Of a stretch of DNA of 24,925 nt, positions 2,243-12,224 are shown in pieces; the first letter of the stretch is position 1; each line of letters begins with the position of its first letter. The stretch comes from a virus, in the IMG/VR virus record IMGVR_UViG_3300046532_000891, positions 1 to 24,925 of that record; one strand, 5' to 3'. The position numbers were made by a program, and so were the translations under genes. Under the pieces are notes generated by a model. The model was not told the origin of the DNA, did not search any database, and saw only the letters and a list, made by a program, of their open reading frames with translations.

Positions 2243-3436
2243 ATGCCAGCAGAAACAAATGTAGATACTACAGAAATAGAAGAAGAAGAAAAAGTTAAAA
2301 CTTTCAAATGTTATGAATGTGAGAGTGAATTTGAAGAAGATGAAATGCAACATAATGATGATGGCGATTTATACTGTTATGATTGTTATTATGAGACTTA
2401 TGGTACTTGTAGTGAGTGTGGCGTGGAGACTTCACACGATTACATTCAATTTGATGAACGGAGCGAAGAGTATTATTGCGATGGCTGCTTACCACATCAT
2501 GGTGAAGATGTAGACCTCGACTCATACTATTCAAATGTAAATATAATAAGTCCAGATAATAATACCTATGTAGATAATAAGTTTGAAAGAGCTGTAGGTG
2601 TAGAAATAGAAACCACTGGGTTTGAACATAGTATAGATGATTTTGATTGCTCTGAATTTGACTTTAAAAAAGCATATGATGGGAGTGTGAATGCAAATAA
2701 CTCAGAATACAAAGGTGTAGAATATATATCTAAACCTATGTCTGGAGATTACTTGTTCAAACAAATAGATAATATAGGTAACTATCTGTTAGATAATGAT
2801 TTCGAAGTAAACAAATCCTGTGGATTACATATACATATAGATGCTAGAGATTTATTTTACGAGCAACTAAAAGGTATATTAATAGTAGCAAAAACATTTG
2901 AGGATATAATATTTAGAATGGTTCCTAAATCAAGAGAAAGATCTAGGTGGTGTCGCAAAGTACCTATGGCAAAGCATGAGATTACAAGAATAGATTCTAA
3001 TTCTGATCTTATACAATCCTGGTACGAAAGTTCTGATACTTATCCAGAGTTGGATAAATATAATGACTCTAGATATCACGGATTAAACCTACATGCAAGA
3101 GTATATCTTGGAACTATTGAATTTAGATATCATTCTGGTACTAATAACCCTGAGAAGATAAAGAATTGGATTACTATATGTCAATCTATTGTAGCTAAAG
3201 GAATAGAGCTTGGTAATGAAATGGAACATAAAAAGACAGGATTTGAGTTTAGTAATGAAGCCGTGTGGCTAACATCAGTTGAAGAGAAGAATGTAACTAT
3301 AAAAGATTTTATAAAAGTTCTTGGGCTTGAACAGCTACGTGGATATGTAATAAGAAGGATACATAAGTTTAATGGAGATAACTTAAATTTATTAGATGAT
3401 AAAACTTTAATACAGGATTACTTAAATGCTGTATAA
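2243..3436 (+). CDS. GS-fold amidoligase with N-terminal zinc ribbons
   Basis: Residues 20-85 hold two zinc ribbons (C23/C26 with C45/C48; C56/C59 with C79/C82) in a very acidic setting. The catalytic part begins near 115 and belongs to the putative amidoligase family of the glutamine-synthetase fold. It shows GVEIETTG (119-126; the two acidic residues are expected metal/ATP ligands), GLHIHID (194-200), KSRERSR (229-235), YHGLNLHAR (278-286) and GTIEFRYHSGT (290-300). Family members form amide or peptide-like bonds between a carboxyl group and an amine. The paralogue at 2-694 has the same blocks. The ATG follows an AGGAG site. Both this protein and the amidotransferase carry zinc ribbons, which could serve to dock on each other or on a shared target. 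The true substrate (protein tail, small molecule or cell-wall peptide) is not visible. Confidence 0.87.
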   Translation: MPAETNVDTTEIEEEEKVKTFKCYECESEFEEDEMQHNDDGDLYCYDCYYETYGTCSECGVETSHDYIQFDERSEEYYCDGCLPHHGEDVDLDSYYSNVNIISPDNNTYVDNKFERAVGVEIETTGFEHSIDDFDCSEFDFKKAYDGSVNANNSEYKGVEYISKPMSGDYLFKQIDNIGNYLLDNDFEVNKSCGLHIHIDARDLFYEQLKGILIVAKTFEDIIFRMVPKSRERSRWCRKVPMAKHEITRIDSNSDLIQSWYESSDTYPELDKYNDSRYHGLNLHARVYLGTIEFRYHSGTNNPEKIKNWITICQSIVAKGIELGNEMEHKKTGFEFSNEAVWLTSVEEKNVTIKDFIKVLGLEQLRGYVIRRIHKFNGDNLNLLDDKTLIQDYLNAV

Positions 3437-4495: not shown

Positions 4496-5129
4496 TAAAA
4501 AAAATAAGATTGTCAAGGTAAAGGATTCTACTGTAAGGCAATCTCTTGTAAAAAAACATAAAGATATTTCTCAGCGAACTACACCTAAGGCTTACGTAAA
4601 AACGAGACCAGATGGTTTTGATTATGTAGAAGAAGCCTATATGCGTAATGAGTTGACAAAGGAATATCCTGGTTGGTCTTGGTCTCCAGCAGGAGATAAT
4701 CCAGTGCAGTTTTTAGGAGCTGAATGGGTTATAGTCACTGGTGTATTAAGACTGGAAGATAATGGAATAATGAGGGAGTTCTTTTCCCCTGGCTCAGCAA
4801 GAGTTCAATTCAAAAGGGGTAAACCACACACCGCTGAATACGTTATTGATGTAGATAAAAATTTAGCAAGTGCTAATACTAACGGATTTAAACGTGCTAT
4901 AAACAGACTTGGTAATATAGCTGATGATGTTTATAGAAAACAAGACCTTACTTTATCTGATGAAGATATAGAAAAGCTAGAGGAGAAAATGGAAGGACTT
5001 TCTGATGAATGGAAAGATAAGATAATGCAAAGCGTTTTAAATGGCGAGGTGGTTAGACCAGATTTGGAAAAAGTAATTAGTAGAATCGATCAATTAATAA
5101 AAGAAGAACAGGAGAATAAAAATGGCTGA
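4488..5129 (+). CDS. Putative single-strand annealing protein (Rad52/Erf-like)
   Basis: The assignment rests on a short signature and on context. Residues about 45-150 form one domain with a beta-rich middle (EWVIVTGVLRL). It ends in DVDKNLASANTNGFKRAINRLG (122-142), which resembles the 'K-x-A-x-T-x-A-x-KRA-x-x-x-x-G' helix of Rad52/Erf-type annealing proteins. The N terminus is lysine-rich and the C terminus is a charged helix (EDIEKLEEKMEG and later). The start is TTG with AAGGAG seven bases upstream, overlapping the nuclease gene by eight bases. The last codons overlap the SSB-like gene. The nuclease / annealing protein / SSB order is the classic layout of phage recombination modules. Without a profile search the family remains probable rather than certain. 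Confidence 0.55.
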   Translation: MDNKKNKIVKVKDSTVRQSLVKKHKDISQRTTPKAYVKTRPDGFDYVEEAYMRNELTKEYPGWSWSPAGDNPVQFLGAEWVIVTGVLRLEDNGIMREFFSPGSARVQFKRGKPHTAEYVIDVDKNLASANTNGFKRAINRLGNIADDVYRKQDLTLSDEDIEKLEEKMEGLSDEWKDKIMQSVLNGEVVRPDLEKVISRIDQLIKEEQENKNG

Positions 5130-5700
5130 TGTCGGAACAATACTCGACAGTGCTAAGAGTCAAGACTCTTGGTATGACCCAAGGCAAGACTTCTCTGGTA
5201 TTATGCCAGAAGGTGAGTACAAAGCTCACGTTAAGTCCTTAAATATAAAAAGAAATGTAAAAGTTAAAAACAAGTTTCTTTCAGATATTTATGAAGTGGT
5301 CTTTACTGTAGCCGAAGAGAATGTTGATATGGAATACCTAGACGACAAAGGAAATGATGTAACTGGAGCTGCTTTTGTCGGCAGGGACTTTCGTTCAAAA
5401 GGTTTCTTTAGATTTAAGAAGCCTAACAAAAAAGAATACCCTAATCTAAGCGAAAACATGGGTTCTAATAGGTCTTATATGGAACTTATTAATTCCTTTG
5501 GATTAACTATGGAAGAAGTTGACGGAAAGTTTTTTCTTCCAGAGTTAGACTCAAGTGATATAGAAGGTTTGCCTGTAGTAGCAAAAGTTTATCACGAAAA
5601 ATGGACTACCTCTGATGGTGAAGAGAAAACGACAGCTAAAGCATCTATGATATTTAGTTGGGAAGATGGTGACAAAAAAGAAGATGAGTTACCTTTTTAG
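5122..5700 (+). CDS. Single-stranded-DNA-binding-like protein with acidic tail
   Basis: The protein is 192 aa with a beta-rich core (GEYKAHVKSLNI, IYEVVFTVAEE, KGFFRFKKP, PVVAKVYHEKW) consistent with an OB-type fold. It ends in KKEDELPF, an acidic tip with a terminal Pro-Phe as in bacterial and phage SSBs, where the tip recruits replication and repair partners. The gene overlaps the annealing-protein gene by eight bases, with CAGGAG before its ATG. It would coat strands made by the nuclease upstream and at the fork of the DnaB-like helicase. Sequence similarity to known SSBs is not obvious by eye beyond the tail, so the call is inferred from tail, size and neighbours. Confidence 0.6.
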   Translation: MADVGTILDSAKSQDSWYDPRQDFSGIMPEGEYKAHVKSLNIKRNVKVKNKFLSDIYEVVFTVAEENVDMEYLDDKGNDVTGAAFVGRDFRSKGFFRFKKPNKKEYPNLSENMGSNRSYMELINSFGLTMEEVDGKFFLPELDSSDIEGLPVVAKVYHEKWTTSDGEEKTTAKASMIFSWEDGDKKEDELPF

Positions 5701-5716
5701 TTAGTTGTTAGTTAAT

Positions 5717-5850
5717 AAGGGCTTGGATGCTCTGATATAAATCCTATCAAGATGGGCGAATAGGTCTCCTAACTTTTGTTATTTGTAGTTAGGTATGTTG
5801 CCATGCCTTTATCAGATATGTTACATTCAAGCCCTTTCTTAGAAAGAGGA
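5717..5850 (+). ncRNA. Structured intergenic RNA, candidate cis-regulatory leader
   Basis: The 154-base gap after the SSB gene folds into a closed multi-branch structure. P1 pairs 5717-5729 with 5824-5836 (13 bp, one G-U). P2 pairs 5731-5737 with 5810-5816 (7 bp). P3 is a hairpin 5743-5747/5760-5764. P4 is a hairpin 5768-5774/5787-5793. A small P5 (5794-5797/5802-5805, possibly extended) competes with P4. Right after P1, CUUUC (5834-5838) can pair with GAAAG (5842-5846) and mask the Shine-Dalgarno AAAGAGGA of the 57-aa gene. That hairpin uses bases also needed by P1, so the two states exclude each other. I match it to no known riboswitch, tRNA or tmRNA. Confidence 0.6.
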
Positions 5851-5854
5851 ACAA

Positions 5855-6028
5855 ATGGTTTTTAAAAATATAGAAAATACAGATCTTATGCTAAAAAAAA
5901 TAAGCATAAAAAAAACAGATGATATGAGCGAAAAAGATGTAGAAGATTTTTGTGAATGGGTCTGTGCAAAAGCAACAAGGCTTGGATTTGATGTGAGAGT
6001 TATAGATGAAGATAAAAAAGTGGATTGA
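5855..6028 (+). CDS. 57-aa protein of unknown function
   Basis: A short reading frame that starts at ATG five bases after a strong AAAGAGGA site. It encodes a charged, helical protein (KKISIKKTDDMSEKDVEDF, then CEWVCAKATRLGFDVRVIDED). The last part, a helix followed by 'GFDVRVIDED', reads like a small alpha/beta unit. Cysteines 33 and 37 are too isolated for a zinc site. It lies directly downstream of the structured RNA at 5717-5850, which could control its translation. It overlaps the next gene by 23 bases in another frame. Function unknown. Confidence 0.6.
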   Translation: MVFKNIENTDLMLKKISIKKTDDMSEKDVEDFCEWVCAKATRLGFDVRVIDEDKKVD

Positions 6029-6209
6029 AATAGAAAAGTTTATAACTGATCTTATGGGTTGGAAGGAAGGTATAAATGCTATGTGTGAAGCTCATAGAGA
6101 AGTAGCACCAAAAAAACCTATATACGAATTGAGTAAACGTGAAGATAAAAAAATTATATTTAGATTAAGAAAAAGATATTCACGGTACAGAGGTAAATCA
6201 GATATATGA
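6006..6209 (+). CDS. 67-aa basic protein of unknown function
   Basis: Not recognised. The protein begins with MKIKKWIEIEKFITD and ends in a strongly basic tail (FRLRKRYSRYRGKSD), so nucleic-acid binding is possible. It starts inside the preceding 57-aa gene (23-base overlap) with only a weak GAGAG-like ribosome site, so translation may depend on ribosomes finishing the upstream gene. No cysteine pairs or membrane segments. A weak hairpin and later a strong terminator follow its stop codon. Confidence 0.55.
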   Translation: MKIKKWIEIEKFITDLMGWKEGINAMCEAHREVAPKKPIYELSKREDKKIIFRLRKRYSRYRGKSDI

Positions 6210-6226
6210 TATTTTTAACCTTAAGT

Positions 6227-6245
6227 AAGAAAGGCTTCCTTTTTT
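6227..6245 (+). terminator. Weak terminator-like hairpin after the 67-aa gene
   Basis: AAGAAAGG pairs with CCUUUUUU over a three-base CUU loop (five Watson-Crick pairs, then one G-U and two A-U). The U run is partly consumed by the stem. It lies 18 bases after the stop codon. A weak or partial terminator is possible; the stronger signal is at 6314-6355. Confidence 0.25.
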
Positions 6246-6313
6246 ATGTGGAGTTGATAATTTTTAATCTGATGATTCAAAAGGTTGGTTTCTTTTATCC
6301 TCTGTGTCTGATG

Positions 6314-6355
6314 GGCTGAGGCTTTAGTATTAAACTAACCTCAGCCTTTTGTTTT
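6314..6355 (+). terminator. Rho-independent terminator
   Basis: GGCTGAGG (6314-6321) pairs perfectly with CCTCAGCC (6339-6346). The stem continues inside as TTAG/CTAA around a short AT loop and is followed by TTTTGTTTT. It sits in the 161-base gap before the gene at 6371 and is the clearest rightward terminator in the window. The rest of this gap (6246-6313) shows no gene and no convincing promoter. Confidence 0.75.
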
Positions 6356-6370
6356 ATTAAAGGAGAATAG

Positions 6371-6586
6371 ATGGCTAAGTTAAAAAAGAACAAAAAGAGT
6401 TATAAGGAATTGATAAAAGAAATAAAACTTCTTGAGTCAATAGTCTTATATTACAGAGATTACCTTGAAAGAATAGGATTGTTGATAGAAAATTACATAG
6501 AGATGAATAAAGATACTGAAAAATTAGTTAAATACATAGAAGAAAAAGGAAAGAAACTTGAAAATAAATGGAATGAAAAAACATAA
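6371..6586 (+). CDS. 71-aa charged helical protein, unknown
   Basis: Not recognised. The whole chain is predicted helical by eye, with heptad-like hydrophobic spacing (YKELIKEIKLLESIVLYYRDYLERIGLLIENYIEM) and a lysine-rich start and end, so a small coiled-coil protein is likely. The start follows AAAGGAG eight bases upstream and comes just after the terminator at 6314-6355. A separate promoter would therefore be expected, but none is clear. The end overlaps the next gene by 29 bases. Confidence 0.65.
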   Translation: MAKLKKNKKSYKELIKEIKLLESIVLYYRDYLERIGLLIENYIEMNKDTEKLVKYIEEKGKKLENKWNEKT

Positions 6587-10674: not shown

Positions 10675-11112
10675 TTAACTTATAACAGTTGGCTCTGGAA
10701 TTGGATCTCTATTAAATACTCTTGGATCTCTTAATAGTTTTTGTAATAAAAAATTAGATGATTCCATTTCAGAGCTATCATCTTTAACATTTGTTCTATC
10801 TTTTAAAGCTTTAGATAAAAACTCAGCCATATCAGAAGCTCTTATAATATCATCTATTGATTTAGACTCTCCAGCATTTGGTTGTAGCTGATTTCTTCCC
10901 AGCATACTAGAAAACTGACTTCTTATAGGAGATTTTGGATTAGTCATTCCTCTTATAAGTTCTTGAATGTCAATTCCTTCAGGAACTTCAACTCCTTCTC
11001 TATTAAGATTTGGACTTGTAGTATATAAAATTTCTCTTCCCATAGGAGTCTTAGACATTTCTCCTTGGTTTTTAGTTAGGGAATCTATTAATTCAAATAA
11101 TTTATCATTCAT
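10675..11112 (-). CDS. 145-aa late protein with SKSIDDII tag
   Basis: Last gene of the late operon, ending directly against the bS21 stop. Not recognised. It is hydrophilic and probably largely helical (MNDKLFELIDSLTKNQGEM at the start). Residues about 83-94 read SKSIDDIIRASD, nearly the same as the N terminus of the putative metalloprotease at 11233-12054. Its start lies inside the preceding 37-aa gene. A minor virion or packaging-accessory role is possible from its position only. Confidence 0.6.
   Translation of the reverse strand: MNDKLFELIDSLTKNQGEMSKTPMGREILYTTSPNLNREGVEVPEGIDIQELIRGMTNPKSPIRSQFSSMLGRNQLQPNAGESKSIDDIIRASDMAEFLSKALKDRTNVKDDSSEMESSNFLLQKLLRDPRVFNRDPIPEPTVIS
10847..10866. 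repeat. 20-base direct repeat, copy 1
   Basis: These bases are identical to 12023-12042, and similarity extends a few bases on both sides. The repeat encodes the shared SKSIDDII peptide of two late proteins. The two copies are about 1.2 kb apart in the same orientation. Confidence 0.8.
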
Positions 11113-12054: not shown

Positions 12055-12224
12055 TTCTTTTTTCTTTTTTTAGCAGTCTTAGCTGATCGAGTAAAAGCTT
12101 TCTTTGTAGGAGCGCCCTTAGTTCCTGGCTTCCTCATTTTTTCCTTAGAGCCAGCTTTAATTCTTTTTCTCTTAGCGTGTATGTTAGCGTACAGTCCTTT
12201 AGGTTTTTTATTTTTTTTTGGCAT
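12051..12224 (-). CDS. 57-aa basic phage protein (GLYANIHAKRKRIKAGS type)
   Basis: It encodes MPKKNKKPKGLYANIHAKRK and RIKAGSKEKMRKPGTKGAPT, then a Lys-rich tail. I recall the block 'GLYANI-x-AKR-x-RI-x-AGS-x-EKMR-x-G-x-x-GAPT' as recurrent in marine tailed phages; its function is not known to me. It starts in a TAATG overlap with the upstream 144-aa gene and ends in a GTGA overlap with the protease-like gene. Very basic and Gly-containing, it may be a structural or DNA-contacting virion peptide. Confidence 0.75.
   Translation of the reverse strand: MPKKNKKPKGLYANIHAKRKRIKAGSKEKMRKPGTKGAPTKKAFTRSAKTAKKRKKK

Follow-up and report, generated by a model that had tools for sequence, protein, structure and literature searches.

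A candidate family of small structured RNAs among the early genes of related uncultured phages, with a putative divergent member

Judged from sequence comparison, the gap between two neighbouring genes in the phage DNA analysed here (IMG/VR virus record IMGVR_UViG_3300046532_000891, positions 1 to 24,925; this whole stretch of 24,925 nucleotides is called the window) holds a real folded RNA that has been maintained in evolution. The same comparison establishes that its pairing is conserved and of the RNA type, that it is oriented along the strand of the genes, and that it is independent of the neighbouring gene. With moderate confidence, we assign this RNA, as a divergent member, to an undescribed family of small structured RNAs, of which related uncultured phages carry one copy per genome in their early region.

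The gap covers positions 5701–5854 on the plus strand, between a 192-aa gene (5122–5700, plus strand) and a 57-aa gene (5855–6028, plus strand) that encodes a conserved protein without a link to the RNA. The 192-aa protein, for which Pfam and PHROG searches gave no match, has an acidic tail (DELPF) and is a putative single-strand DNA-binding protein on the basis of this tail and its position only. The RNA begins 17 nt past the stop codon of this upstream gene. Elsewhere in the window, adjoining genes at 735–1937 and 2243–3436 (also 5–694) encode class II glutamine amidotransferase and amidoligase-family proteins, a pair that is unusual as phage cargo and that possibly serves peptide or surface modification. 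At position 10675, the sign of both the GC skew and the AT skew flips where the genes turn from plus to minus.

An initial annotation had described the gap as a 13-bp closing helix with one G-U pair, an inner 7-bp helix, and two or three hairpins. Both helices are present: in the closing helix P1, AAGGGCUUGGAUG at 5717–5729 pairs with CAUUCAAGCCCUU at 5824–5836, and in P2, UCUGAUA at 5731–5737 pairs with UAUCAGA at 5810–5816. Two hairpins are likewise present, one at 5743–5764 (CCUAU-CAAGAUGGGCGA-AUAGG, stem 5743–5747/5760–5764) with a strongly conserved 12-nt loop, and one at 5768–5793 (CCUAACU and AGUUAGG, stem 5768–5774/5787–5793), but the third (GGUAUG/CAUGCC) is absent in L012, the closest relative of the window. 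When the gap was shuffled 150 times, the longest long-range helix had a mean length of 7.3 bp and a maximum of 10, and 13 bp was never attained. The folding energy of the gap on the plus strand is unremarkable (z −1.46), and comparison with relatives therefore had to decide. P2, which has a predicted probability of 0.32 and competes with a local hairpin (UGAUA/UAUCA), is favoured over this rival by a compensatory change in L012.

The L012 contig, which recurs as L001, L004, and L009, carries the same gap, and 32 pairs of the window fold were compared. Three of these have changed on both sides and still pair (one in P2 and two in the 5768–5793 hairpin), two differ by wobble, and one, in P1, is broken. 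In P1 of L012, the G-U pair has become G-C and a different pair is lost (U-U); in P2, which reads UCUGGUA/UACCAGA, an A-U pair has been replaced by G-C; and in the 5768–5793 hairpin, one wobble change accompanies the two compensatory ones. The 5743–5764 hairpin differs at a single position out of 22 nt, and its stem is invariant. No compensatory pair was left when the pair partners were slid. In the 5′ half of the element, 2 of 48 positions differ between the window and L012; at third codon positions and fourfold sites of four flanking genes, 32–52% differ. An open reading frame spans the whole gap in L012, but a coding function was rejected, as the frame stops after two codons in the window and is not kept by the relatives. 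An RNA from the minus strand was also considered and rejected: the folding z-score is better there, yet the family model described below scores the plus strand higher, and the non-Watson-Crick pairs, which are G-U on the plus strand, would become A-C on the minus strand.

A compact RNA is located at the same place in the near relatives L013, L014, L015, and L017, and in L022 it sits upstream of the 213-aa gene. These contigs, to which the upstream 213-aa gene and not the motif had led, all share P1, the junction sequence UUGYU, and ACAGCGAAUUAACGY, with an exact 14-nt core. The compact RNA is not confined to near relatives but extends to uncultured phages that are more distant. Motif scans of IMG/VR in which P1 was left free added L044, L045, L046, L047, L050, L051, L053, L054, and L064, with L059 carrying the same RNA as L046, and an earlier scan had added L040 and the weaker L037 and L041. 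The motif scans required the core, and its invariance among the members found in this way therefore proves nothing; most members, however, come from a scan that set no condition on P1, so that the pairing of P1 is independent evidence. Across the family, the compact RNA measures 56–120 nt, and its canonical order is P1 (about 8–12 bp), UUGYU, an arm of variable length (P3), ACAGCGAAUUAACGY, an optional insertion, and YG ahead of the 3′ strand of P1. An outlying member of about 170 nt at 12082–12251 of L037 (minus strand) has P1 and the core, and the large insertions that separate the two, together with an extra hairpin in the 3′ junction, indicate where the family tolerates insertions.

In an alignment of 15 members, 98.4–98.6% of the pair cells are paired, nine pairs have double changes, and there are 47 compensatory cells against the 13.8 expected from shuffles (0 of 500 shuffles). 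Sliding the partners by one to three columns reduced the compensatory cells to 0–7. Up to four pair types are found per P1 column pair, and likewise at the first P3 pair, and where P1 departs from Watson-Crick pairing, it does so almost exclusively with G-U, as read on the gene strand. The core can adopt two folds, UUGYU paired with AGCGA or a GCG-AAUUAA-CGY hairpin, both of which fit the alignment. The two partners of the same G vary among pyrimidines only, which fits either fold or both.

Like the canonical members of the ACAGCGAAUUAACG RNA family, the window element has the P1 closing helix with covariation. The ACAGCGAAUUAACGY core is not found in the window or in L012, where GAUGGGCGAAUAGG takes its place. 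The best match of the family model coincides exactly with P1–P1′ on the plus strand, at 17.5 bits in L012 and 11.1 bits in the window; in the wide model search, L012 reached E = 0.24 and the window fell short of E ≤ 1. As chance loci chosen by their core attain up to 23.6 bits, membership of the window form is based on position, the P1/UGCUC sequence, and phylogeny. P1 and UGCUC of both sequences are near-identical to those of L015, a GCGAAU remnant is present, and the tree places the window and L012 in one clade (100/98) inside a group (99/100) that otherwise comprises four canonical members. There are good, but not certain, grounds to regard the window/L012 form as a derived relative, in which the core would have been replaced by another branched fold within the same P1. 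That it is instead unrelated to the canonical family and merely occupies the same gap, as the missing ACAGCGAAUUAACG core and the weak model score could suggest, appears rather improbable in view of the shared gap, the likeness to L015, the remnant, and the nesting of the clade with four canonical carriers.

The family model identifies one confident copy per carrier contig. The carriers are related uncultured phages in which the element belongs to the early (recombination/replication) gene region, and every copy inspected lies between genes and shares the strand of the early genes around it. The copies are usually located 10–30 nt past a stop codon, and the next gene differs. A related phage (L031) is without the element, which is thus not essential in the wider group. 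At 2095–2170 in L019 and 5175–5250 in L020, the RNA is replaced by a terminator-like, GC-rich hairpin (GTGCGCCTC/GAGGCGCAC) with a T-run, directly after the upstream gene. No specific co-occurring protein partner was found; a basic CxxC-containing protein is present in 13 carriers, but also in two non-carriers. Two motif patterns gave no match when scanned against 84,980 prokaryote genomes, and no convincing match was found among the named phages of INPHARED. Pattern matches in L008, L010, L039, L042, L048, L049, L052, L055–L058, L060–L063, and L065–L075 were rejected as chance matches; they have low model scores and, where read, lie mostly inside genes.

In the L044 clade, the element is directly followed not by a gene but by a second structured RNA (RNA2), located 33–190 nt downstream of the AGCGAATTAACG core in L107, L110, and L113 (all minus strand) and in L109, L111, L112, L114, and L115. 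In all eight contigs tested, RNA2 has a closing helix of 10–14 bp (0 of 60 shuffles in each) with GGUUGGC just before its 3′ strand. The sequence of this helix is variable, the span is 91–175 nt, and a conserved GGUUGGC or GGUUUGGC immediately precedes the 3′ strand. RNA2 often ends shortly ahead of a small gene, and no Rfam match was obtained for the RNA2 loci scanned. The window has a second conserved noncoding stretch, similar to RNA2, at 6210–6370 on the plus strand between the 67-aa and 71-aa genes. This stretch is kept in the whole window clade and consists of a GAAAGG..CCUUU hairpin followed by (G)GUUGG(CAAA), UUAUCCUCU, and GUCU, with a GC-rich hairpin (GGCUGAGG/CCUCAGCC) and a T-rich tail in its 3′ part. 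It may be the window-clade counterpart of RNA2.

The expectation that the gap would contain a multi-branched, conserved RNA outside the known classes agrees with the compensatory changes and with the covariance scan against Rfam 15, which gave no relevant match for the element in the window, the canonical members, or the relatives at either the curated gathering threshold or a relaxed one. The element matches neither an ordinary terminator nor a tRNA: positions 5500–6450 contain no intrinsic terminator (GC-rich short-loop hairpin with a T-run), the loop between the P1 strands being 94 nt, and neither tRNA nor tmRNA was detected by ARAGORN or Rfam. An integron attC site was rejected as well: in such a site the folded strand is bounded by RYYYAAC and GTTRRRY boxes, whereas the element ends in P1 strands such as GGGCUUGG/CCAAGUCC, and GUUGCU and AAUUAAC misfit these boxes. 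In HK022, the put antitermination RNAs are structured elements of early phage transcripts that act independently of the neighbouring gene. The likeness to them is one of description, and the element described here is positioned mid or late in the run of early genes; a search of the roughly 600 nt that follow gave no terminator-like site. The manA, wcaG, and PhotoRC-II motifs are structured RNAs identified by covariation in phage or marine DNA; they precede defined metabolic or photosynthesis genes and are included in Rfam (Weinberg et al. 2010, PMC2864571). Conserved structure and covariation are shared with these motifs, but our element has no Rfam match and its neighbours vary. Similarly, the c4 antisense RNA of phages (RF01695; PMC2864571) is a small structured phage RNA, but the element has no Rfam match to c4 at either threshold. 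Within Rfam 15 and the literature searched, the family appears undescribed.

The initial annotation had further proposed a riboswitch or protein-bound leader of the 57-aa gene, in which the 3′ strand of P1 and a hairpin burying the Shine-Dalgarno sequence would define two exclusive states. The folding calculations lend no support to such exclusivity: forcing the 5834–5838/5842–5846 hairpin keeps 10 of the 13 closing pairs and takes away just the three outer ones. Of the Shine-Dalgarno sequence AGAGG, the hairpin covers no more than the first two bases (A5845 and G5846). The forced hairpin lies 3.7 kcal/mol above the MFE, with a pair probability of 0.003, and no counterpart forms in L022; a ribosome-site switch at 5834–5846 is thus, as far as folding calculations predict, energetically negligible and not conserved. 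The element has neither a consistent set of downstream genes, since other genes follow it in L013, L017, L022, and L040, nor a conserved expression platform, given the improbable hairpin and the lack of a terminator-like site. Conversely, homologues of the 57-aa gene occur without the element in L031 and in L019, which has the plain hairpin and T-run there. It is unlikely that a ligand switch governs the 57-aa gene. More generally, a cis-acting leader, either a riboswitch or an autoregulated protein-binding element, could control translation of whichever gene comes next: the window-clade RNA ends about 20–40 nt ahead of a start codon, and P1′ holds CCYUU, which could pair weakly with some Shine-Dalgarno sequences. 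The change of downstream gene between members, its substitution by a structured RNA in the L044 clade, and the points just made about the 57-aa gene and the hairpin make such control decidedly unlikely.

The remaining alternatives concern the level at which the element acts. A post-stop fold which host ribonucleases either cut or cannot pass, so that it determines how stable the mRNA of the upstream early genes is, would suit the usual distance from the stop codon, the variable downstream gene, and the plain hairpin with T-run that L019 and L020 have at that place. We consider such a processing or stabilising element rather unlikely, because the strongly conserved 14-nt core exceeds the usual need of a ribonuclease site or a plain barrier. 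Action as single-stranded DNA, for example as a site of priming or replication initiation, could be suspected from the single copy per genome near replication and recombination genes, and the G-T pairs would be equally compatible with one DNA strand. However, the GC skew of 15 contigs has no consistent change across the element, and the skew profile of the window changes only where the gene direction flips, which renders a DNA-level role very improbable. A bolder proposal is that the canonical RNA, with its UUGYU/ACAGCGAAUUAACGY junction core and, in one clade, the GGUUGGC RNA2 directly after it, represents a new phage RNA class that is catalytic or acts in trans, possibly a self-cleaving ribozyme, and that would be released from the early transcript to target the host or the replication of the phage. 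A conserved junction core with freely varying helices is also seen in the hammerhead, twister, pistol, and hatchet ribozymes, but no Rfam ribozyme model matches the element, and we hold this proposal to be distinctly doubtful.

We therefore return to a family of small structured RNAs as the preferred reading, under which the element would be co-transcribed within the early polycistronic transcript, would fold whatever the neighbouring gene, and may work as a stand-alone RNA or as an element of that transcript that serves processing or stability or binds a protein or RNase. Its compensatory changes, its single copy in each genome, and its lack of ties to a neighbour make it a good candidate stand-alone RNA of phages, a kind with, to our knowledge, few known examples. 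The motif and the covariance model can now be used for finding the family in cultured phages, and in the same phages the family adjoins a second, apparently new structured RNA.
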